From positions 1 through 27,489 of IMG/VR virus record IMGVR_UViG_3300009488_002146: a stretch of DNA of 27,489 nucleotides; one strand, written 5' to 3'. A model generated the notes under the pieces. That model was given only the letters and a program-made list of their open reading frames with translations, ran no database searches and had not been told where the DNA came from. Positions 383-27,176 of the stretch are shown piece by piece. The position numbers and the translations under genes are program-made. Each line of letters starts with the position of its first letter. Position 1 is the stretch's first letter. This stretch comes from a virus.

Positions 383-2740
383 ATGCCGACTGCACCCCCA
401 GGAGGTGGCCGAGGCGTCGGCGCCCGGACAGCTGGCGCGAGCTCGAAGCAGTTCACGTTCCGGGACATCCCGAAGATCCGCCCCGAGGCCACAGAGCCCG
501 ACCCCCAGGACGGCTCGCGGCTGGAGTGGGTGTCGTTCCTGTGGGATAGCCAGGATGAGCTCGTGCGCCTCCGCGATCGCATGATCGAGGAGAACCTGCG
601 GATGCTCGCCGGCCAGCAATGGACGGTGTTCAACCCGCGCCTCGGGCGCTTCGTGGACGTGACGCGATGGATGACCGACGAGGAAAAACGCTGGCGCTCG
701 CGGCCCGTCTTCAACCGCTTGCTCCTGTGGTTCATGCTCACGCACGCGCGGATGACCGAGAACCCGCCCATCATCACGTTCGCTCCGGGGCCGGACCGTA
801 TCGACTCTGAGCTCGCCGCCACGATGGACATCATCTTCAAGACGAAGTGGCGCGAGATCGACATGAATGAGATCTGGGATCGCGCTGCGTCCTGGCTCAT
901 CCCCTCGGGCACCGTGTACCTGCGCAGCCGGCTGGACACCGAGAAGGGGGCCCTGCAGCCGCGCATCGCGCGCGCGCCGCTGCCCATGGTCGGGCCCGAC
1001 GGCGAGCCACGCCTCGACGAGGCCGGAGCGCCGATGGAGACCGAGGAAGAGTTCGACGATGTCCCGCTCGGGGAGGACTTCGAGCCCCTGAAGCAGATGA
1101 CGCCCGACGGGCCGATGCAGACCGGCGAGGCGTTCGCCGAGAAGAAGGGGGACCTCAACGTCGACGTGTTCAACGCCCTGCAGGTCCGGGGTGAGTGGTC
1201 TCCCCGCCCGTGGCACGAGAAGCGGTGGCACATGATCCGCACGTTCCTGACCCCCCTGGAGATCTTCGAGCGGTGGGGTGTGGACACGGTGGGCGAGGCG
1301 GAGACCACGCCGGACGGGACGGGGGCGCTGGAGCGCATCCTCTTCGGGAAGGGATTCTTTGGCGCGGCCGAGGCCTTCTTCGGCTCCGACTTCGCGAGCG
1401 CGGGGATGCCCGAGCAGCTGGTCGAGGTGTTCGAGCTCTGGCACCGCCCGGTGAAGAACCCCAACGAGCCCCGGATGGCGGAGACCGAGGAGTCACCTGG
1501 CGGCCGGCTGCTGATCTGCACGCGGAAGAAGGTGCTGTCCGACGACGTGCGGCCCGTGCGCTTCAAGTTCACGAGCTCGCTGCGGCGGATCGAGTTCGTC
1601 CGCCTACCGGGCCGGATGTCCGGGGGCACGACCCCGCAGGAGGCGATGAACGGCGCCCAGCGCAGCTACAACCGCGGCTGGTCCCAGATCATCGAGCACC
1701 GCAACCTGGTCACCAACCCCAAGGGCATCATCGACGCGATGAGCGGGCTGGAGGAGACCGAGATCGACAACGAGCCGGGCACGTTCCACGTCGTGGCTCG
1801 CCGGCCAGGCGTGCCGGCGTTCGAGTGGGTGGTCCCGCCGCCGATCTCCGAGGACGTCTACCGCACGCAGGCGCTGCTGCTCAACGAGATCAACGACCTC
1901 GGGGCGCTGGCTGGCACCGAGGGCGACGCGCCGACGCAGGACGCCTCTGGCGAGCTCGTGAAGGAGCTCCGCTTCAACGCTGACCGGTTCGTCGGTCCCA
2001 CCATGCGCCGGGCCGTGAACGAGATGGCGCGGATGGGTGACGACTGGCTCACGCTGATGCCGCTGATCTTCGACCGGGAGGAGCTGTTCTCCTACGCCGG
2101 CGAGGACAACGTGGCGCGCACCACGATCATCATCCCGCAGATGTTCGCCGAGGGGAAGGTCAACATCATCCCCGACGTCGAGTCGATGCTGCCCGAGGGG
2201 CGCGGAGAGCGCCAGGCTCGGATCACCTCGCTGTATGTGAACGGGCTGTTCGGCCCGCCGGGCACGCCGGAGTCGGTGCGCCGCTTCTTCGAGCTCTCGA
2301 CGTTCCCCCACATCGACCGGGCCAAGAAGTTCGGCGGAGTGGACCGCATCACGGCTGAGCAGGAGAACGGCCAGCTCCTCCAGGGCATGGACCCGCGGCA
2401 GATCCCCGTGTTCGAGTGGTACGACCACTCGATCCATCTGCTGATCCATGAGGAGTTTATGAAGTCCCCGGAGTTCCTGAAGCAGCCCGAGCAGATCCGG
2501 GCGGCGTTCGAGGCGCACCGGCAGATGCACATCCTCATCATTCAGATCACGCTGATGGAAGCCGGATCGGTCGGCGGGCTGGCGCCGGGGGGAGGACCCC
2601 CCGCTCCGAGCGGTAACGGCAATGGCGCGCCGGGACCAAGTTCCCAGGACGTGGCCGGTGGCGGGACGATCGGTCGTGAACCAGAAGGAGTCACCGAGAC
2701 GCCGACCGCCGCAGGCCAGGGTGTGCCGGCTGGGGGATAG
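383..2740 (+). CDS. Portal protein (podovirus type)
   Basis: This 785-aa protein is the likely portal, the dodecameric ring at one capsid vertex through which DNA is packaged and ejected. It starts at ATG 383 behind a strong GGAGGAG. The N-terminal part (about residues 55-170) has the helical, Trp-containing pattern of P22/T7-like portals (DRMIEENLRMLAGQQW, RPVFNRLLLWFMLTHARMTENPP). The central part includes the segment DASGELVKELRFNADRF, as expected near the portal stem and crown. Residues from about 725 on are Gly/Pro-rich and look disordered. Its length is close to large podoviral portals (P22 about 725 aa). Its position before scaffold-like and capsid genes supports the call. The assignment rests on pattern and synteny, not a search. 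Confidence 0.8.
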   Translation: MPTAPPGGGRGVGARTAGASSKQFTFRDIPKIRPEATEPDPQDGSRLEWVSFLWDSQDELVRLRDRMIEENLRMLAGQQWTVFNPRLGRFVDVTRWMTDEEKRWRSRPVFNRLLLWFMLTHARMTENPPIITFAPGPDRIDSELAATMDIIFKTKWREIDMNEIWDRAASWLIPSGTVYLRSRLDTEKGALQPRIARAPLPMVGPDGEPRLDEAGAPMETEEEFDDVPLGEDFEPLKQMTPDGPMQTGEAFAEKKGDLNVDVFNALQVRGEWSPRPWHEKRWHMIRTFLTPLEIFERWGVDTVGEAETTPDGTGALERILFGKGFFGAAEAFFGSDFASAGMPEQLVEVFELWHRPVKNPNEPRMAETEESPGGRLLICTRKKVLSDDVRPVRFKFTSSLRRIEFVRLPGRMSGGTTPQEAMNGAQRSYNRGWSQIIEHRNLVTNPKGIIDAMSGLEETEIDNEPGTFHVVARRPGVPAFEWVVPPPISEDVYRTQALLLNEINDLGALAGTEGDAPTQDASGELVKELRFNADRFVGPTMRRAVNEMARMGDDWLTLMPLIFDREELFSYAGEDNVARTTIIIPQMFAEGKVNIIPDVESMLPEGRGERQARITSLYVNGLFGPPGTPESVRRFFELSTFPHIDRAKKFGGVDRITAEQENGQLLQGMDPRQIPVFEWYDHSIHLLIHEEFMKSPEFLKQPEQIRAAFEAHRQMHILIIQITLMEAGSVGGLAPGGGPPAPSGNGNGAPGPSSQDVAGGGTIGREPEGVTETPTAAGQGVPAGG

Positions 2741-3009: not shown

Positions 3010-4272
3010 GTGGCAGCTCCAGTAAAGCCCGACCCGTCTGCATCGACAGACGCCGAGGGCGGAGAGCAGGAAGGTGGACTGCGACTGAGTCCACTGGAAG
3101 CAGCGATCGCAGAAGCCAGGCGAGCATCGACCGAGGGCGAGCCACTCGTGCCGCCGGCAAAAGAAGAGGGGGAGGGCGACGAGAAGCCCGCCGGCGAGGC
3201 GGAAGCCGAGGGTGCCGAAGCAAGCGAGGCCGAGGGAGGTGAGCCGGATGCCACCGAAGAAGACGAAGAAGGAGCTGCTGACGCCGACGCAGGCGCGGAG
3301 GAAACGGAGGCCGGCGAGGAAGGCGGCGAGCCGCCCGAAACGGAAGGCGCTGCCGAAGCCGATGCGCAAGCCGAGGACGATGTAGACCCCGAGCTCGTGG
3401 TGGGATTGCCGCCACGGCGCGAGGGCGACGAGGAAGTCGAGATCGTCGCGGAGAACCAGGAGGTGGCCGAACGACTCCGCCAGCTGAAGAACCAAGCCGT
3501 CGCAGGCGCCCAGCTGCAGGAGCGGGAGGCGAAGGTCGAGACCGACTTCGCACAGATCGAGGAGATGGAGCTGCAGATCGGGACCGACCCGGTCGGCTTC
3601 ATCCTCAAGAACGTGCCCGAGCAGACGATCGGTCTGCTCACGTTGGCGCTCGTGACGGACGACGCCGTGCTGGCGTCGATCAAGGATCAGCTGTTCCCGG
3701 CGCTCCAAGATGAGAAGGAGCTCCGCACCCTACGTGCTGAGCTCAAGGGCGCACGGGCCGAAGCGAAGAACAGCCTCCGCGACGCCGTCGAGGCGAAGCG
3801 GTACGGCAAAGAGCAGGCAAAGATCATCCGGGGCGCGATCGCCCACATGGTGCCGGTCACCGACGGGATCTCGGAGAGCCGGCGCACGGCGATCATTCAG
3901 GACTTGGAGCTCGCAGCCGCCACGGAGGTGCGCACGAAGCAGCTGCAGAAGGTGGAACCGGGCGACCTGCCCGTGCTGCTGAGCGCGAAGTTGCGGGCCC
4001 ATGGCATTGATCCTCTCGCAGCATCGAAGGCGATAACAGACGGCGCCAATTCGGAGGCCGGCTCCACGAGCTCCCCGAAGAAGAAGGCGAAGCGTCCCAC
4101 GACCAAGGAGCTGAAGACGGCGAGTGCCAGGCGGAAGAAAGCAGCCGCAGTCACGCCCCCCGGCGGATCTGCCCCTGCGTCTCGGCCGAAGCTGCCGGAA
4201 GGCCAGAAGCTGAGCGATCGGTTCAAGTTGGCGCGCGAGAAGGGTCTCGGCGCGCTGCTCTCGAACCGGTGA
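3010..4272 (+). CDS. Putative capsid scaffolding protein
   Basis: The start is GTG 3010, set by an ideal AAGGAG seven bases upstream; the product is 420 aa. The first 140 or so residues are very rich in Glu, Asp and Ala (low complexity). A long helical, coiled-coil-prone middle follows (about 140-190 and 235-270, for example ELRTLRAELKGARAEAKNSL). The C-terminal 90 residues are Lys/Arg-rich and finish with a short helix, LSDRFKLAREKGLGALLSNR. Acidic, coiled coil and basic tail is the usual build of podoviral scaffolds, whose basic C-terminus binds coat protein during procapsid assembly. The location directly between portal and major capsid genes is the standard scaffold position. No protease motif is seen. 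Confidence 0.65.
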   Translation: MAAPVKPDPSASTDAEGGEQEGGLRLSPLEAAIAEARRASTEGEPLVPPAKEEGEGDEKPAGEAEAEGAEASEAEGGEPDATEEDEEGAADADAGAEETEAGEEGGEPPETEGAAEADAQAEDDVDPELVVGLPPRREGDEEVEIVAENQEVAERLRQLKNQAVAGAQLQEREAKVETDFAQIEEMELQIGTDPVGFILKNVPEQTIGLLTLALVTDDAVLASIKDQLFPALQDEKELRTLRAELKGARAEAKNSLRDAVEAKRYGKEQAKIIRGAIAHMVPVTDGISESRRTAIIQDLELAAATEVRTKQLQKVEPGDLPVLLSAKLRAHGIDPLAASKAITDGANSEAGSTSSPKKKAKRPTTKELKTASARRKKAAAVTPPGGSAPASRPKLPEGQKLSDRFKLAREKGLGALLSNR

Positions 4273-4300
4273 ACTGACCTTTCACCGAGGAGCTGTGACA

Positions 4301-5749
4301 ATGGAGTACAACCGACTCACGGTCGGCTTCAGTCGCTTCCTGGTGGGCTGTGGTTTCTTGGCGCTGTATCTCCTGACGGGACCGGTTGCCCTTGCGGCGC
4401 CGGTGTTCGGCATGGCCGGAGACACCACGCTCACGTCGGACATCGACGAAGCCCTCAAGATCATCTTCTCGGACCCACTCATCAACAACATCGTCGAAGA
4501 CACGGAGCTGATGGACATCTTCAAGGTGGATATGAACGTCCAAGCGGACGATACCACCGGCGGGAGATTCATCGAGATGGCTCACTACTTCACGCTGCCG
4601 GCTGGCGTTGGCGCGCGTGCAGAGAACGAGTACATCCCCGAGCCCGACGATCCTCGCTTCGAGAACTCGCGCCTCTTCCTGCGGAAGCTGCAGGGTGTGG
4701 TCGAGATGACGGGCGATGTGATGCGCAAAGTGCGGTCCGACGAAGGGGCGTTCCTGAACTACATGGAGCGCGCACTCCCCGATCTCGTCACCCGGCTGGT
4801 GAACGAGATCGACCGGATGTACATCTCTGATGGATCGGGCATCAAGGCCCGAATCGAGAGCGTCACCTCGGCCGTGGGCACGACGCTCGTGGCTGTGGTC
4901 AATCGCACCTACGGCATCGACGGACTCACCGGCTCGATCTTCCAGTTCATGGAGGGCGAGCGGAACGTGTTCGACCCGGCGGCTGACGGTCAGTCGTTGC
5001 GGGCCGGCGGTGGCGATCAGTCGTTGCAACTCACCGACATCGACGAAGACACCAACACGCTTACGTGGACCGGGCTTGCTGCGCTCGTGAGCATCGTGGT
5101 GGCTGACGATTACATCTTCTCCGGCGACGAAGCCGGGGCGTCGAGCAACACGGCCGCGGGCGAGGATCGCGAGATCGCCGGCCTGTTGGCTGCGGTGGAC
5201 GATGGCGGGATCATCGCCACGTACAACAACATCGACCGCACGGCGTCGGGTAACCGGCTCTGGAAGTCGATCGTCATCGACGGGTCCGTGCCCCAGTGGG
5301 GCGGACAACTCACCGAGGAACTGCTGACGTTCGCGGACGATGAGGTCACGGTGAAGGGTGCCGGCCGCATTGATACGTGGGTCATGGCGCGGTCCGCTGC
5401 GCGTGGCTACTGGCAGAGCCTGAAGGGCGACCGGACCATGGTCGATCCTCGCTCCTTCACGGGCGGGAAGGCCGGACTCTCGGTCGTGCTGGGTGATCGG
5501 ACCATCGACCTCAAGGTCGCGCGCAAGCTGCCGCCCGAGCTCACGTTCGGTCTGCAGTCGGACAGCTTCCGGCGCCTGACGTTGGGCCAGTGGGAGTGGG
5601 ACGACAGAACCGGCTCCATCTGGAATCGGGTGACCGACTCGGTCGGTCGGAAGGATGCGTTCTTCGCCGTCGGCAACATGTACGAGCAGCTGTTCTGCAT
5701 GGCGCCGCGCAAGAATGTACGGATCGAAGGCCTGACGGCCGTATTCTAA
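4301..5749 (+). CDS. Major capsid protein with signal-peptide-like leader
   Basis: This is the likely coat subunit (HK97 fold expected). ATG 4301 is chosen because GAGGAG at 4287-4292 is eight bases upstream; a GTG at 4295 would be only two bases away. The product is 482 aa. Family-like segments include TLTSDIDEALKIIFSDPLINNI near the N-terminus, then TLPAGVGARAENEYIPEPDD and KLQGVVEMTGDVMRKVRSD (N-arm and E-loop style region), then a long mixed alpha/beta body. Residues 1-37 form an unusual leader: Arg5 and Arg12, a hydrophobic stretch from 13 to 33, and an ALA-AP cleavage-like site. An internal ATG at 4412 would remove it but has no ribosome binding site. A strong hairpin follows the gene, as after many capsid genes. 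Confidence 0.85.
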   Translation: MEYNRLTVGFSRFLVGCGFLALYLLTGPVALAAPVFGMAGDTTLTSDIDEALKIIFSDPLINNIVEDTELMDIFKVDMNVQADDTTGGRFIEMAHYFTLPAGVGARAENEYIPEPDDPRFENSRLFLRKLQGVVEMTGDVMRKVRSDEGAFLNYMERALPDLVTRLVNEIDRMYISDGSGIKARIESVTSAVGTTLVAVVNRTYGIDGLTGSIFQFMEGERNVFDPAADGQSLRAGGGDQSLQLTDIDEDTNTLTWTGLAALVSIVVADDYIFSGDEAGASSNTAAGEDREIAGLLAAVDDGGIIATYNNIDRTASGNRLWKSIVIDGSVPQWGGQLTEELLTFADDEVTVKGAGRIDTWVMARSAARGYWQSLKGDRTMVDPRSFTGGKAGLSVVLGDRTIDLKVARKLPPELTFGLQSDSFRRLTLGQWEWDDRTGSIWNRVTDSVGRKDAFFAVGNMYEQLFCMAPRKNVRIEGLTAVF

Positions 5750-5830: not shown

Positions 5831-6691
5831 TTGTCTACTCAAGATCGCAATATCGACCGGAACGCCGAGGTGGCCCGGAAGTACATCGCCGCCATCGCCG
5901 CGGCGCCGACGGCCACCGACGTCGACCAGATCCGGTACTTGTATCAGATGCGCCACAATTTCCGGCTGACCGACCTGGAGGTGTACGCCCAGGATGTGGG
6001 TACGGCCGTGATTCGGGCGCGGGCCTGTATCGCCAAGGAGCTGAGCGCCGTGGGCGCCCCGCTGGCGACGCCGGCCGCGGCCGTCACGTTCGCCATCGAG
6101 GCCTTCACCCAGCTGGACGCCGGGATCTTCGTGGCCGTGGGCGCGACGGCGGCCCAGGCGTTCGGCAACACCGCGCAGGTCAGCGATACCTTCTGGGGCG
6201 CGTGGACCGTGCAGATCGACGGCGCGCAGGTGATAACCACGAAGCCCGCCGCAAGCGTCATGGCGTTCCTCAGCCAGGACGACGCTCTCAAGAACGCGCC
6301 GGCGCCGGATGCCCTCAACGGGCTGGTCGGTGTGCTGACGATCGAAGCCAATGGCGGCGACTTCATCGCGGGCACGACCCTCACCAACGCCGCTCTCGTC
6401 GACAGCTTCGACCTTGTCGATCGCGGCGGGATCTTCGTCGACGCGCCCATCTCGGCGACGCCGGATGCCGTGCAGGCCAACCTGGACTTCGGCGCGAATC
6501 GGCGGCTGACCGTGGCGAAGGTGGGGAACCTGGTGGGCATCGAAGGCGACTTCCTTGTCGCCACCGTGCGCTCGGTCGGTGCGGCCACCATCACCGACGG
6601 CAAGCTGACCCTCGGGTATCGCAAGTTCCCGCTCCAGGGCGAGTCCGGTCCCGACGTGGCTACCGGGCTCACTGCGGCGCAAGTCGTCTAA
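5831..6691 (+). CDS. Unknown virion-type protein after capsid gene
   Basis: The 286-aa product starts at TTG 5831, supported by AGGAGGG at 5820-5826; no ATG fits better. Residues 1-75 are mostly helical (VARKYIAAIAAAPTATDVDQ, then TDLEVYAQDVGTAVIRARACI). From about residue 80 the protein turns into small, Ala/Gly/Thr/Val-rich beta-type sequence with few charged residues, as in virion surface or decoration proteins. It has its own strong ribosome binding site after the capsid hairpin, so its expression may be set separately from the capsid protein. A decoration or head-stabilising role is a guess from position only; I recognise no family. Confidence 0.7.
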   Translation: MSTQDRNIDRNAEVARKYIAAIAAAPTATDVDQIRYLYQMRHNFRLTDLEVYAQDVGTAVIRARACIAKELSAVGAPLATPAAAVTFAIEAFTQLDAGIFVAVGATAAQAFGNTAQVSDTFWGAWTVQIDGAQVITTKPAASVMAFLSQDDALKNAPAPDALNGLVGVLTIEANGGDFIAGTTLTNAALVDSFDLVDRGGIFVDAPISATPDAVQANLDFGANRRLTVAKVGNLVGIEGDFLVATVRSVGAATITDGKLTLGYRKFPLQGESGPDVATGLTAAQVV

Positions 6692-15342: not shown

Positions 15343-17036
15343 TGGGCGTCCCGTTCCGGCCGAGCGTGGTGCCCATAGCGGGCCCACAGTTCGGCGACAC
15401 GTTCAGCCGCGCGCTTGAAGGCGCGTTCGGCTTCGTCCAGGACGTCGCCGAGGCGCGGCGCAGGGGCGCGGAGTTCGAGACGGAACAGCGTCAGGCAGAG
15501 TTGCGCAATCGGGCACTGGAGCAGGAGCTCGGCATTCGCGGCCGGCAGGCACGGCTCGACATCCTGAGAGATCCGACGCAGATCACCGCGGGTGAACGGA
15601 AGAGACGCCTGGCGGAGTTCGACGCCGAGCAGACCGGAGGGGACCAGGCGGCAGCGCCCCCTGGCCCGACGCCCCCCTCCCCCGCGCTCGAAGCCGCACT
15701 CGAATCGGCACGCGGCCAGGTGAGGGGTGACCGGCCCCCCGCGCCGGGAGAGGAGCCCGGTCGGCCCGTCACGCCGCCCGGTGGGGTGACGCCCGGTGGG
15801 CCGGAGGAGGCCGCCGGCTTCCAGCCTCCACCGTTCATCCGCCAACCGGAGCAGGTCTTCGCGCCGGGAGGGCAAGCGGTGCGGCTGCCCGACATCGGCG
15901 TGAGCGCCCAGGCGCCGGAAGCCCAGGTGGGGGTGCCGGACGCGGCGCCGCCGACGGTGCCGGACGCGCTGGCTGATGCGTTGGCGCCACAGCAGCCCAA
16001 GATCCCCCGGCCCCAGCTCCAGCAGTTCGGGGCAGATCCCCAGCTCGGGCCCCTGTTCTTTGATCCACGGGGCGGGCAGCGCGAGGCCTTCGCCGCCGGC
16101 TCGTTCGCGGCCGAGGAGACCGCGGACCTCCTGGAGCGTGCAGCCCGACAGCAGGAGCTGCAGGGCAACCAGCGGATGGGCGACTCCATCCGGGAGCTCA
16201 TTCCGCAGGCGGTGGCCGCCATCTCGGCGGGCAACCCGCCCAACGACGTGGTGCAGGGGATCTTCCAGCAAGCGGAGGAGGGCGTGGAGGGACGCGCCGA
16301 GGAGCGGTTCCTGACCGGCGAGCTCGAAGAGCTGGGCGAGGGCGAGACGACTACTTCACCCGGCTTCCAGGCGATGTCCTTGGAGGATCGGGTCGCCGAG
16401 CTCCGCGCACGGCGCAACCAGCTGGTGCAGTTGGCCGCGGTGGACGTGCGCGCGGAACGCCAGGAGACGGCTGCTCAGCGACGCGCCGACGCGACGCTGA
16501 CGCAGCAGATCGTTCAGGGGCTCCGCGCGGACACACGCGACCTGGTGGATGCCGCGAACGGCTTCAGCTCGATGCAGCAGGGGTTCAATCAGCTCCGGGA
16601 GGGCAACCCGGCGGGCGGCTTCAGCTTGCTGAGCGGCTTCGCGCGGGTGAACGATCCGGGCTCGGTGGTGCGGGGCGAGGAGCTCCGGGCGGTCGAGGCG
16701 CTGGGCGCGTTCGATCAGCGGATCAAGACGGCGCTCAACAAGGCGCGGGATGGCACACTGGACATCGAGCTGGCCGGGCAGATCCTGGCCATGGGGCGCG
16801 CGCTCATGGAGGAGCGGTCCCTGACGTTCCAGGAGTTCCGCAACGCGGCGATCCAGCGTGGGTCGATTCAGGGCCTGGACCCGGAGGACATCAGCGGCGC
16901 GCTTGGCCCTGGTCCGTTCGAGCGGTTCAGCAACGAAGCAGCGGCGGCGGCTGATGCCGAGACGGTGCGGGAGCTCCTGGGCGATGACGCCTTCCCGCCC
17001 CCGCCGACTCGCAACCCTGGCCGAGGGCGACAGTAA
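15342..17036 (+). CDS. Putative internal virion protein 2 (coiled coil, Pro-rich)
   Basis: The 564-aa product starts at ATG 15342 in a TAATG overlap. Residues 1-90 are helical and charged (EARRRGAEFETEQRQAELRN). Residues 95-230 are Pro/Gly/Ala-rich and probably disordered. Residues 245 to the end return to long helices (ADLLERAARQQELQGNQRMG, VRAERQETAAQRRADATLTQ). There are almost no cysteines, as expected for proteins that must unfold to pass the portal. Position and composition match the middle-sized ejection proteins of podoviruses; no enzyme motif is visible. The stop overlaps the next ATG. Confidence 0.6.
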   Translation: MGVPFRPSVVPIAGPQFGDTFSRALEGAFGFVQDVAEARRRGAEFETEQRQAELRNRALEQELGIRGRQARLDILRDPTQITAGERKRRLAEFDAEQTGGDQAAAPPGPTPPSPALEAALESARGQVRGDRPPAPGEEPGRPVTPPGGVTPGGPEEAAGFQPPPFIRQPEQVFAPGGQAVRLPDIGVSAQAPEAQVGVPDAAPPTVPDALADALAPQQPKIPRPQLQQFGADPQLGPLFFDPRGGQREAFAAGSFAAEETADLLERAARQQELQGNQRMGDSIRELIPQAVAAISAGNPPNDVVQGIFQQAEEGVEGRAEERFLTGELEELGEGETTTSPGFQAMSLEDRVAELRARRNQLVQLAAVDVRAERQETAAQRRADATLTQQIVQGLRADTRDLVDAANGFSSMQQGFNQLREGNPAGGFSLLSGFARVNDPGSVVRGEELRAVEALGAFDQRIKTALNKARDGTLDIELAGQILAMGRALMEERSLTFQEFRNAAIQRGSIQGLDPEDISGALGPGPFERFSNEAAAAADAETVRELLGDDAFPPPPTRNPGRGRQ

Positions 17037-19129
17037 TGGACCCAGAACAACTTCGCCGACTCATGCAGCGGGCCACCGAGGCCTTGCGTCGGGGCGCGAC
17101 CGCCCACGAGGTCGACAACTTCATTCGTGATGAGTCTGCCGGGCTGTTCACCAGCGCGGCGGCGTTGCGCCAGTCCCCCGACGTGCGGGATCTGGCCTTC
17201 ACCGAGGGACAGGCGGGGCGTGAGGCGGAAAAGGTTCGACTGCGCGACGTGTTCCGCTCCGCGGCACAGGGCGCCACGTTCGGCTTCGCCGATGAGCTCG
17301 CCGGCGTCGGCGCTGCGTTGGTTCCTGGCGGGCGCAACTTCGCCGAGGCCACCGAGGCGGTCCGCGCAAACGAAGAGCGGTTCCGTGCGGCGCACCCGCG
17401 GATCGCGCTGATGTCGGAGATCGGCGGAGCGGTCGCCACGTCGTTCCTGGGTGGGGCGGCCATCGCGCGCGCCGGCACTCGGGGCGCTCGCGGCCTGACG
17501 TCGGCGGCGCGGGCGAAGTCCCCCCAGACGGGCTTCCTGCCGGGGATCGCTCGTGGGGCGGCGGCGGGCGGCGTCGAGGGCGCCGTGGAGTCCGTCGGTC
17601 GGGCCGAGGGCGGACTGCTGGATCGGGCGGGGCCGGGTGGTGTGGGTGGGCTGGTGGGCGGTGTGGTCGGTGGCGCCCTGCCGGCGGTCGGGACCGGGAT
17701 TCGGACGGCCCGGCGAATCGGCGCGGCGAACTTCCGGCCCGAGCAACGGGTCGTGGAGATCGCGGACAGAGAGCTCGCTGGGGCGTTGGGATCACGGCCC
17801 GGCGGCTTCGCTGCGGCGCGTCGCGCGCTCACGGAGATCGAGTCCGCGCGACCGGGCCAGTCGACGCTGGCGGATATTTCCCCGGAGACCCAGAGCCTGC
17901 TGGATACGGCGGTGAGCGCCAGCCCCCAGGCTCGCGAGGTGGCCGGCGAGCAATTCGCTCGACGGCAAGCGGGGCAGGCAAGGCGCCTGATTCGCGATCT
18001 CGAACAGGCTTCTGGAGGGCCACCCAACGTCAAGGTGGCGCTCGAAGAGGTGACGCAAGAGCTCCAAGATCTCGGTGCTGAGGTCTACGAGCCGCTGCGG
18101 CGCCAGTTCCGCGACTTGCTCCAACAGGGCCAGAACCCACAGGCGGTGGATGCGCTCAAGGCCTTCCTCGAACGGCCACGAGTCGCGCGCGCCTTCCGCG
18201 CGATCGACGCGATCGAGCAGATGGTCGACCCGAACCGTCTGCCGCCAACCTTCGACGAGCTCCAGCGCGTGCGCAAAACGCTGGGGCGCGCGGCCGATCG
18301 GCTGCGCCGCAACGACCCCCAAGGAGCGCGCTCCTTCCGCCTGGCGGCTCGGGAGATGACCGAGCTGATGGAGAAGGCCATCCCCGGCTTCAAGGAGGCC
18401 AACCGCCGGTATGCCAGCCTGGCCACCGTGCGGGATGCCCTCGAAGCGGCGCCGCGGGCCTGGCGCGACTCCACGGAGCAGATCGCCGAACAGCTGGCGT
18501 TCTTCCAGCGCCGGGGCGGGGACCGGGCGGCGAACAACTTCCGCCTGGCGATGCTCGACGGGCTGATCGACGACATCCGCGGCATCGCGTCCAATCGGCA
18601 GTCGCAGCGGCGCTTCACCGCGCCCACGCTCGACTTCGGTGACAACATGAAGCTGCTGTTCCCCGACGATGACACGCTCCAGGAGATCCTGCGCCGGGCG
18701 GAGATCGAGAACGTGTTCTCGAAGACGGCCCAGGCGGGCGGCGGCAGCGACACGGCACGCCGGCTGGCCGCCTTCGGCGACCTGGTGGGCGGCGCGGACT
18801 TCGCCGGGGCGCTCGCCACGGGCGGCGCTCGTGGTGGCGTCACGGGGTTCGCTGGCGCGGCACTGGGCGAGGCGCAGAAGGCGGTGCTGAAGGCAGAGCG
18901 CGGGCTGTTGCCGCAGGTGGGCGAGCGGATCGGCGAGGCGCTCACCTTGAGGGAGCGCGGGAGCATGTTGGTTCTGCTGCGCCGGCTGGAGCTCCAGCAG
19001 GTCAATCTGATGAAGAAGCTCGATCGCAGACGGGTCGGGGAGGCTTTCGTCGGCGGCTTCTTCGGCCGAGAAGCCGCTGCGGTGGCCACGGGACGGGAGA
19101 CGCGCCTCGGGGCGCTGATCCGCGGGTAG
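17036..19129 (+). CDS. Putative internal virion / DNA transfer protein 3
   Basis: The 697-aa product starts at ATG 17036 (TAATG overlap). Residues 60-150 contain RSAAQGATFGFADELAGVGA, then NEERFRAAHPRIALMSEIGG and AVATSFLGGAAIARA, a segment seen repeatedly in phage internal or transfer proteins. Residues 155-235 are Gly/Ala/Val-rich and could insert in membrane. The rest is helical (for example RQFRDLLQQGQNPQAVDALK) with another small-residue stretch near 580-615. Cys is absent or nearly so. Its length is close to T7 gp15 (747 aa). It most likely forms part of the ejected channel. Confidence 0.6.
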   Translation: MDPEQLRRLMQRATEALRRGATAHEVDNFIRDESAGLFTSAAALRQSPDVRDLAFTEGQAGREAEKVRLRDVFRSAAQGATFGFADELAGVGAALVPGGRNFAEATEAVRANEERFRAAHPRIALMSEIGGAVATSFLGGAAIARAGTRGARGLTSAARAKSPQTGFLPGIARGAAAGGVEGAVESVGRAEGGLLDRAGPGGVGGLVGGVVGGALPAVGTGIRTARRIGAANFRPEQRVVEIADRELAGALGSRPGGFAAARRALTEIESARPGQSTLADISPETQSLLDTAVSASPQAREVAGEQFARRQAGQARRLIRDLEQASGGPPNVKVALEEVTQELQDLGAEVYEPLRRQFRDLLQQGQNPQAVDALKAFLERPRVARAFRAIDAIEQMVDPNRLPPTFDELQRVRKTLGRAADRLRRNDPQGARSFRLAAREMTELMEKAIPGFKEANRRYASLATVRDALEAAPRAWRDSTEQIAEQLAFFQRRGGDRAANNFRLAMLDGLIDDIRGIASNRQSQRRFTAPTLDFGDNMKLLFPDDDTLQEILRRAEIENVFSKTAQAGGGSDTARRLAAFGDLVGGADFAGALATGGARGGVTGFAGAALGEAQKAVLKAERGLLPQVGERIGEALTLRERGSMLVLLRRLELQQVNLMKKLDRRRVGEAFVGGFFGREAAAVATGRETRLGALIRG

Positions 19130-25090: not shown

Positions 25091-25184
25091 TGTGGAGACG
25101 TGCACAACATGTGGAGAAGGTGTTGACAACTGTTGACCGTCAACACCTTCGCCCACTATTGGGGATTGTCCAGCGTGTGTCAAC
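25091..25184. other. Candidate replication origin / operator upstream of the initiator
   Basis: This gap between recT and the initiator gene holds several repeats. TGTGGAGA occurs at 25091 and 25110; the second, extended to TGTGGAGAA, matches the DnaA box (TGTGGATAA) at 8 of 9 bases. AAGGTGTTGAC (25117-25127) and GTCAACACCTT (25139-25149) form an 11-bp inverted repeat. TGTTGAC is repeated at 25121 and 25131, ten bases apart. A further half site GTCAAC is at 25179-25184. The layout suits an origin, or an operator through which the initiator controls its own gene. Confidence 0.5.
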
Positions 25185-26019
25185 CCTCGGCGTCTTTGTC
25201 CTGCGCCTGCCGCTTGCGCTCCTCCTCCAGCTGCATCTTGAGCTCTTCCTGCCGGTGCTGGGTTTCCTGGTCGATCTTCTCCTCCAGCACCGTCTGCTCC
25301 TCACCATCCATCGGCCGGGTGATCTTGCCGGTGTCGGCGCGGCTGTCAATCTCCAGCAGGTCGCCGAGGCGCACGCTGGTGATCGGGATGCGCTTGTCGA
25401 TCAGGAAGCGGATGCAGGTCTTCATGGCCATGCGGTCCCACCACTGCCGCCACGGGGCCTGGTCCTTCATCTTCGAGCTCGCGCGGATGCGCTCGATCTC
25501 GATGCGGTTCATCACATGGAAGAGCGGCGCGGGGGCGCCAGGGAGCCACGCGATCGCGTAGGCGTAGAGGATCTCCTGGGTGTTGCCCCGGTCGATCGAG
25601 TAGTCCGGCTCGTGCACCAGGGACATCGCCGAGCCCTTCTTCACCTCGAAGACGTCTTCGGCGAAGACCAGATCCGCGTCGATCATGCTCACGGCGCCTG
25701 AGCGCATCGCTCCGGTGATAAACCCCCGGTTGTCGACGATCAGGGTGCAGTGGCGCTTGAAGGGCACCAGGTGGGCTTCACGGCCCAACAACAGCCCGAG
25801 GCGTGCCGCGTCATACACGGCATTCATCACGCTGTGCGGGTGGCACTCCGCGAGCGAATCGTTCCGCATCACCTCGAAGCGGGCGATGCTGATGAGCTGC
25901 GCCCCGGTCAGCCCGGAGGCCTGGGGCAGCATCTCGTCGAGGGCGGTCTCGCGCGCCCGCAGCATGTCGATCGCGGTGAGCTCTTTCCCCCTGATCGGGG
26001 TGGTGGCCATGTTGGACAT
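25180..26019 (-). CDS. recT: RecT-family single-strand annealing protein
   Basis: The 279-aa product starts at ATG 26019, five bases after GAGGAG; a GTG six bases earlier overlaps that site and is less likely. The RecT pattern is clear: ISIARFEVMRNDSLAECHPH near 45-65, AARLGLLLGREAHLVPFKRH near 70-92, a central VFEVKKGSAMSLVHEPDYS, and WWDRMAMKTCIRFLIDKRIP near 200. The last 50 residues are a charged coiled coil (EEKIDQETQHRQEELKMQLE). RecT proteins coat and anneal complementary single strands. The upstream exonuclease gene ends within its ribosome binding region, the usual coupled exonuclease-annealase pair. Confidence 0.9.
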   Translation of the reverse strand: MSNMATTPIRGKELTAIDMLRARETALDEMLPQASGLTGAQLISIARFEVMRNDSLAECHPHSVMNAVYDAARLGLLLGREAHLVPFKRHCTLIVDNRGFITGAMRSGAVSMIDADLVFAEDVFEVKKGSAMSLVHEPDYSIDRGNTQEILYAYAIAWLPGAPAPLFHVMNRIEIERIRASSKMKDQAPWRQWWDRMAMKTCIRFLIDKRIPITSVRLGDLLEIDSRADTGKITRPMDGEEQTVLEEKIDQETQHRQEELKMQLEEERKRQAQDKDAEG

Positions 26020-26021
26020 CT

Positions 26022-27065
26022 TCACTCCTCGCTGATGTGGTAAATGCGTAGATCCTCGCTTGGCTTCCCTCGCTTCAGGAGCCCGTCAAGGTCTACTCGC
26101 AATTCTGCCGCTGCCTGCTGCAGCAGCGTCAGCACTCCAGGATACTCGGGTTCAATCTCTGCGGCCCACGCAGCCAATTTAAGCGGGTCGACCAGCCCCG
26201 CGGCCTCGACCACGTCCTTCTTCAGTGCCAGGTTGCCCTGGCGCTTCTTGAAGTAGACGCGCGCGCCGGCCCCCTCGAAGACGCCGTGGCGCTCGCAGAG
26301 ATCCTTGATCTCCTGCCGGGCCAGGTCGTAGAGCGCCTGGGCTTCGTCGCGCATCGCGCGCCGGCTGGCCTCCGTTTCGATCGCGTCCTTCCAGGCGGTG
26401 TCGTGGCGGTCTTCGACCAGCCCCTCGACCTTGGGGAGCTCGATGTTCCACTGCAGCTCTTTGGGGTTGGGTGGCTTGCGCGGTACGACGTGGTCGTACC
26501 AGAAGGCCTCGCACATCTGGACGATCTCGCGCTGGACCTCGGCGTTGGCCGTGAGCACGACCGAGGCGAAGCGGAACGTGTCCGGGTGGAGGATGGCCAC
26601 CGCGGCCCACGGCTTCCCGCACAGCTGCATGTAATGCTGGCATTGGAGCTGGTAGTCGGCGCTGATGCCGCGCTCCTGGGTCTTCTTCAGGACCGCGTAG
26701 GCCATCGTTTTGCATTCGAGGATGCCGCCCTGGTCGTACACGGCCTCGGTGCGCTGCTCGTCTTCGAGTGCGCGGATGAGCGAGTCCGGGTGGCCGATCA
26801 TCCACTTGTGGTCACGGTGTCGGCGGAACTGCGCGCGCTTGAGCTTGCGGCCCGTGCGCTTCTTCCAGAGCTCGCGGACGATGGGCTCCAGGTAGATGCC
26901 GCGCTGCAGCACGCCCTCGGGCTCATCGGCCGGTGGGTCGGGCTCGGTCTTCTCGATGTAGACGTTCAGAATGTTGCGGCGGGGATTCACCCCCACGATG
27001 GCTCCGACGTCGCTCCCCCCAATACCGCTCTGCCGGCGGCGGAGGAACGTAGCTCGGTCGCTCAT
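26022..27065 (-). CDS. YqaJ-type recombination exonuclease
   Basis: ATG 27065 is chosen for AGGAGG seven bases upstream; the open frame continues further up without such a site. The 347-aa product has the YqaJ/lambda-exonuclease core: GIGGSDVGAIVG (14-25), Glu60 in the first helix region, GHPDSLI with Asp94, ILECKTMAY with Glu117 and Lys119, and YQLQCQHYM (138-146), which together make the PD-(D/E)xK active site. The C-terminal 130 residues are helical and beyond the usual core. It would resect double-strand ends to give 3' single strands for the RecT protein encoded next to it. Confidence 0.88.
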   Translation of the reverse strand: MSDRATFLRRRQSGIGGSDVGAIVGVNPRRNILNVYIEKTEPDPPADEPEGVLQRGIYLEPIVRELWKKRTGRKLKRAQFRRHRDHKWMIGHPDSLIRALEDEQRTEAVYDQGGILECKTMAYAVLKKTQERGISADYQLQCQHYMQLCGKPWAAVAILHPDTFRFASVVLTANAEVQREIVQMCEAFWYDHVVPRKPPNPKELQWNIELPKVEGLVEDRHDTAWKDAIETEASRRAMRDEAQALYDLARQEIKDLCERHGVFEGAGARVYFKKRQGNLALKKDVVEAAGLVDPLKLAAWAAEIEPEYPGVLTLLQQAAAELRVDLDGLLKRGKPSEDLRIYHISEE

Positions 27066-27176
27066 TGATCGGCCTCCTGTTGTTGAGTAAGTTAATGGCC
27101 TCGGTTGGTGTGCCGGAGTGCGCGGGCCCTGACCTCCCACCGGTGACTCTGCGGTCCACCGTGGTGCTGCTCCCGG
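27066..27176 (-). other. Short gap before the exonuclease gene
   Basis: These 111 bases separate the zinc-finger gene from the exonuclease gene. They contain the short palindromes CACCGGTG and CCACGGTGG and an AT-richer end (ATTAACTTACTCAACAAC on the minus strand) just before the exonuclease ribosome binding site. I see no convincing promoter or gene. Confidence 0.35.

Follow-up and report, generated by a model that had tools for sequence, protein, structure and literature searches.

Procapsids of most tailed phages are regarded as assembling in the cytoplasm. A 2011 review states that membrane association of procapsid assembly has been shown only for T4, whose proheads assemble on the inner membrane via a separate anchor protein (PMC3185693). 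Partial precedents for a signal peptide on the shell protein itself are found in three systems. The capsid proteins of Porphyromonas gingivalis phages (proposed family Nixviridae) were predicted to carry N-terminal signal peptides (PMC10367356). In the engineered phage T7::PhoE, the PhoE signal peptide was placed on the capsid protein, and the resulting particles assemble, infect normally and bind phospholipid (PMC5157022). Finally, an encapsulin with a Sec-like signal has been described, whose assembly is proposed to follow translocation into the anammoxosome (PMC8346489). A literature search for a natural tailed-phage capsid with a signal peptide returned only the remark on the Porphyromonas phages.

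Here, we analysed the viral record IMGVR_UViG_3300009488_002146 over its 27,489 nucleotides (the window), in which the major capsid gene starts with an additional coding segment. The best explanation is that the first ~40 capsid codons encode an N-terminal membrane-targeting sequence of the Sec signal-peptide or signal-anchor type, which is an inherited trait of a podovirus family. Such a leader is odd on a capsid protein because phage shells are made inside the cell. Packaging requires a capsid subunit that ends up in the cytoplasm, and an N-in signal sequence would pull it out.

The capsid gene and translation of its leader

The product of 4301-5749 on the plus strand, a 482-codon frame from ATG 4301, is the major capsid protein. 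It matches NCBIfam NF033394 (capsid_maj_Podo) over residues 46-478 with 97.5 bits (cut-off, 80 bits) and phrog_14242 at 6.6e-29. Fold searches with model residues 38-482 gave exclusively HK97-type capsids as top Foldseek matches, and the combined matches of Foldseek and VIA-align were HK97 capsids and encapsulins. The VIA-align scores (Z up to 12.0, rmsd 8.7, 279 residues) refer to a capsid model of modest confidence (pLDDT 57.7), too low for the leader to be positioned with respect to the shell. A PDB sequence search with the family profile returned no matching protein. Each genome contains a sole capsid gene with adjoining portal and scaffold genes (Table 1), and no second, leaderless capsid gene was found in the same genome. 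The scaffold-like gene adjoins the capsid gene in both leader-bearing and leaderless genomes, and its product in the window had no family match in profile searches.

Table 1. Features of the structural gene region, in window positions; residues are those of the capsid protein.
Feature	Position	Strand	Basis or remarks
P22-type portal protein	383-2740	+	phrog_156, 3.1e-15; PF16510 below its cut-off
Probable scaffolding protein	3010-4272	+	Directly 5' of the capsid gene; acidic N-part, basic C-part
Shine-Dalgarno sequence GAGGAG	4287-4292	+	8 bases 5' of ATG 4301, the start codon served
Leader n-region, MEYNRLTVGFSR	4301-4336	+	Residues 1-12; net +1
Hydrophobic h-region	4337-4378	+	Residues 13-26; hydrophobicity extends to ~33
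c-region GPVALA	4379-4396	+	Residues 27-32; signal-peptidase-I-like site after Ala32 (ALA-AP, 30-34)
Stub APVFGMAG	4397-4420	+	Residues 33-40; P-hydrophobic..G motif before TT
Major capsid protein body, HK97 fold	4421-5749	+	NF033394, phrog_14242, fold searches

Other genes of the region deserve brief mention. In one genome (G011, IMGVR 3300038548_000288), the equivalent of window 5831-6691 is present twice in tandem just 3' of the capsid gene (312 and 309 aa), possibly as a duplicated decoration or head protein. The window also encodes RecT and YqaJ-type recombination genes (25180-27140, minus strand) on the strand opposite to the structural genes. The 697-aa late protein encoded at 17036-19129 is of the ejection type, and its sub-threshold match to Ntox28 (residues 299-357; 17.6 bits, cut-off 25) is probably due to chance.

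The capsid leader, MEYNRLTVGFSRFLVGCGFLALYLLTGPVALAAPVFG, resembles a Sec signal with arginines at positions 5 and 12, and Glu2 brings its n-region to the net charge given in Table 1. It is real and translated. Pairing with the anti-Shine-Dalgarno sequence has a duplex energy of -8.1 kcal/mol at ATG 4301 versus -3.0 at the codon of Met38 (position 4412); GTG 4295 is also in frame with the capsid gene, yet it is only 2 bases away from the Shine-Dalgarno sequence. The third-position G+C content of the leader is 0.78, compared with 0.85 for the capsid body, and a GGAG/GAGG/GGGG-type site precedes the leader start codon in 18 of 19 leader-bearing sequences, L143 being the exception. The peak hydropathy over 15 residues (KD) is 1.99 for the window leader and ranges from -0.8 to 1.48, and thus below the leader, in the other 24 open reading frames examined in the window. 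Among 697 plus-strand start codons with 36 open codons downstream, 15 reach the hydropathy of the leader and 4 of these also have a basic start. The decisive test for a leader beyond chance is its retention in relatives.

These data agree with the original prediction as to the position of the leader at 4301-4411, its two arginines, hydrophobic run and ALA-AP site. They also agree that the ribosome binding site is placed for ATG 4301 and that the leader with its G/C-ending codons is translated, to which conservation in relatives adds. Its description as a Sec-like signal that is surprising on a capsid protein is upheld. The placement of the conserved capsid start at Met38 needs adjustment: leaderless relatives do begin at the equivalent of Met38-Asp41, but the leader unit comprises residues 1 to ~40.

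Distribution, selection and history of the leader

Pattern scans of viral contigs identified ~35 distinct contigs of a single family, and the last two scans added no relatives. Leader status was read by following each capsid frame upstream to its stop. Nineteen distinct sequences including the window are leader-bearing (homologues L002, L003, L004, L033, L048-L053, L079-L083, L088, L090 and L143), with capsid proteins that are 43-82% identical. Their leaders are 34-42 residues long and always have Lys or Arg close to their beginning and a hydrophobic run thereafter; a basic n-region is present in all leader-bearing relatives. A P-hydrophobic-G stub, in fuller form P-hydrophobic-hydrophobic..G-x-TT, is located 3' of the putative cleavage site and before the conserved TT in 16 of 18 leaders. 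In a leaderless group (L005-L013, L025, L029/L030), 68-74% identical to the window capsid protein, the start corresponds to the residue equivalent to Met38-Asp41 and stop codons lie immediately 5' of it; the same was observed for L078 and L084. Alignments of the window capsid protein with leaderless relatives resume at Thr42-Thr43, and stub and leader are missing together. An internal methionine equivalent to Met38 is not conserved, and L048, L052 and L053 have no equivalent internal start. Leader-bearing and leaderless homologues therefore both exist, and the outcome that the original prediction had named as speaking against the leader, a family uniformly starting at Met38, is not what was found.

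The hosts of this short-tailed, uncultured phage family are probably Gemmatimonadota. Matches to bacterial genomes were confined to two Gemmatimonadota bins, one from a scan of 84,980 species and one among 395 Gemmatimonadota genomes; the host assignment is probable rather than certain because the sensitive profile was run on Gemmatimonadota only. As both contigs are phage-sized, they may be co-binned phages and not prophages. The L033 contig JAOTVV010000018.1 (60,016 bp), in which bases 6001-6400 recur at 56119, is a circular phage genome of ~50.1 kb that is inflated by an overlap of ~10 kb and was binned with a Gemmatimonadota MAG. The 46,623 bp contig of the second Gemmatimonadota genome (G107:C89; L143/L144) is a family member with a textbook-like leader, MKRVITSRLAAFAVLAAMFLVAAVNPAWA-FSG.

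Selection acts on the physical character of the leader. Peak 15-residue hydropathy is 1.99-2.93 in the leaders and does not exceed 1.56 in capsid proteins without a leader; in the h-regions of 18 leaders, a single residue out of 270 is polar or charged. When neutral drift of the window leader to 75% divergence was simulated, leader-level hydropathy was kept in 3% of the runs. The pN/pS ratio is 0.42-0.80 in the leader and 0.11-0.34 in the capsid body. The leader pS is equal to or higher than that of the body, which makes an overlapping gene or an RNA element unlikely, and neither is supported as a source of the constraint. Thus, the letters of the leader are free, but its physical character is kept by protein-level selection, a pattern typical of signal peptides.

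In the capsid-core tree, leader-bearing sequences occupy the basal positions of the family, with two leaderless lineages nested inside. The most parsimonious history consists of one gain and two losses, and on this reading of the tree the leader is the ancestral state; independent gains are possible because deep branches are long and some forks are open. The portal-scaffold-capsid gene order is identical in leader-bearing and leaderless genomes, and no compensating anchor gene was seen in the latter. Among the virion proteins common to most of 12 genomes, only the capsid protein has a signal-like or transmembrane-like N-terminus. The leader is part of the sole capsid gene, is selected for a basic start and an uncharged hydrophobic helix, and is cleanly absent in the leaderless lineages.

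Signal class, cleavage and possible role of the leader

The combination of a basic n-region and an uncharged hydrophobic h-region corresponds to the Sec type. A Tat signal was rejected, because none of the 19 leaders has RR within residues 1-20. A lipoprotein signal was likewise rejected; the lipobox pattern matches only the window leader (LVGC, residues 14-17, 4340-4351, in the middle of the h-region) and L048 (LVAC), probably by chance. A strict PxxAxA-type site occurs in 13 of 18 leaders compared with 9.1 in shuffled sequences, which is a weak enrichment (100 of 2000 shuffles were as high), and a signal-peptidase-like site is absent in L053, L082 and L083. Cleavage by signal peptidase I is hence likely in most lineages and proven in none. 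Prohead proteases of the S78, S14 or S49 type were found in none of 11 records (ten of them 47-53 kb long), with working controls; a phage protease is therefore unlikely to remove the leader and the host signal peptidase is a plausible cutter.

Membrane contact, cleavage and purpose of the leader are what we infer from these features. New capsid subunits would be brought to, or held at, the host inner membrane, where procapsids would assemble with scaffold and portal, while the capsid domain, by folding, would stay cytoplasmic. The leader would then be clipped by host signal peptidase I after a small-residue site (Ala32 in the window phage) in most lineages, leaving the short P-hydrophobic-G stub as the mature N-terminus. 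We give this model, in which the leader recruits capsid subunits to the inner membrane for assembly of procapsids and is mostly cut off by the signal peptidase of the host, a little less than an even chance. Membrane-associated assembly is favoured because T7::PhoE is viable and T4 proheads form at the inner membrane. Against it stand the positive-inside topology, which would point the capsid domain towards the periplasm, a compartment in which it could not be packaged, and the cleavage site, which is weakly enriched and missing in three leaders. As leaderless lineages share the portal-scaffold-capsid order, a membrane step would not be essential for this capsid type. The wider statement, that an HK97-fold tailed phage family puts a host Sec signal on every capsid subunit and uses the inner membrane as a platform or lipid source for its procapsids, is offered tentatively, as somewhat less likely than not.

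Since T7::PhoE assembles and infects, a leader is also compatible with cytoplasmic capsid assembly, and subunits that carry a signal are not necessarily drawn away from it. Two main rivals to the favoured model were considered. The leader could be retained on the mature capsid protein and bind phospholipid or another hydrophobic surface, giving a lipid-associated or stabilised shell as a natural counterpart of T7::PhoE (PMC5157022). The conserved stub and the hydrophobic leaders of L053, L082 and L083, which have no signal-peptidase-like site, would suit such retention, but the proline and small-residue c-region of most leaders is typical of cleaved signals, and we regard retention as unlikely. 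It is also improbable that the leader is a hydrophobic propeptide of the procapsid, a very short delta-domain-like element for assembly or scaffold contact that has no membrane role and is either kept or removed by an unrecognised protease. The structure model, in which the h-region is predicted as an isolated helix (residues 8-26) joined by a low-confidence stretch, would fit a propeptide, and the Nixviridae authors supposed that a prohead protease cuts the capsid signal peptides (PMC10367356). This membrane-free role is weakened because the 11 records contain no recognised S78, S14 or S49 prohead protease; moreover, a separate scaffold-like gene exists, and neither the consistently basic n-region nor the small-residue c-region would be needed.

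The positive-inside topology would suit a leader that sends some of the capsid protein out to the periplasm or envelope, where it might act in interference, exclusion or lysis, while a shorter form builds the head. Met38 could be a second start for that form in the window phage, but it has no Shine-Dalgarno sequence, three relatives have no equivalent internal start and the gene is present as a single copy, which makes export very improbable. The leaderless relatives, which begin at the equivalent residue, would suggest that Met38 is the true start and that the segment 5' of it is not translated. This start-choice artefact can practically be dismissed: the Shine-Dalgarno sequence suits ATG 4301 and none serves Met38, relatives as distant as 43% identity retain the reading frame of the leader and its constrained hydropathy, and the internal methionine is not conserved, so that ribosome binding site, conservation and selection rule it out. 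The original prediction is thus partly supported in its interpretation. Among its proposals, membrane-directed procapsid assembly with cleavage fits best, a maturation protease of the phage is a less likely cutter given the S78, S14 and S49 searches, and a delta-domain substitute is possible, although a separate scaffold-like gene lies directly 5' in both genome states.

Comparison with known systems

If procapsids are indeed assembled at the membrane, this route would be undescribed for a natural tailed phage whose own capsid protein holds the membrane anchor. The question is directly testable, because natural leaderless relatives (about 70-74% identical to the window capsid protein) provide built-in controls. 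On the practical side, automated start trimming or filters for secreted proteins may mishandle such capsid genes.

The nearest cultured homologues, Arthrobacter phage Jasmine and Microbacterium phage Shocker (phrog_14242), are 22-25% identical; they share the fold, but lack a leader and infect actinobacterial hosts. The pVIII procoat of filamentous phages (f1/M13; PMC3185693) is likewise a major virion protein with a leader, which is cleaved by the host signal peptidase, but pVIII is a small membrane protein of a different fold and is extruded rather than packaged. The encapsulin resembles the window protein as an HK97-fold shell protein with a signal peptide, and differs as a cellular compartment without DNA packaging. 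T7::PhoE also combines a Sec signal peptide with the major capsid protein of a viable tailed phage, but as an artificial fusion, for which lipid binding was shown. The literature searched contained no natural leader that spans a whole family, is cleanly lost in some lineages and comes without a recognised phage protease. For the Nixviridae, the likeness is a predicted signal peptide on the major capsid protein of a tailed phage, which is a comparison by feature and not by homology. The Nixviridae encode a prohead protease, to which the cutting is ascribed in a single sentence of that paper; here, no protease of the S78, S14 or S49 type was found, and the leader can be traced through a family together with its losses.
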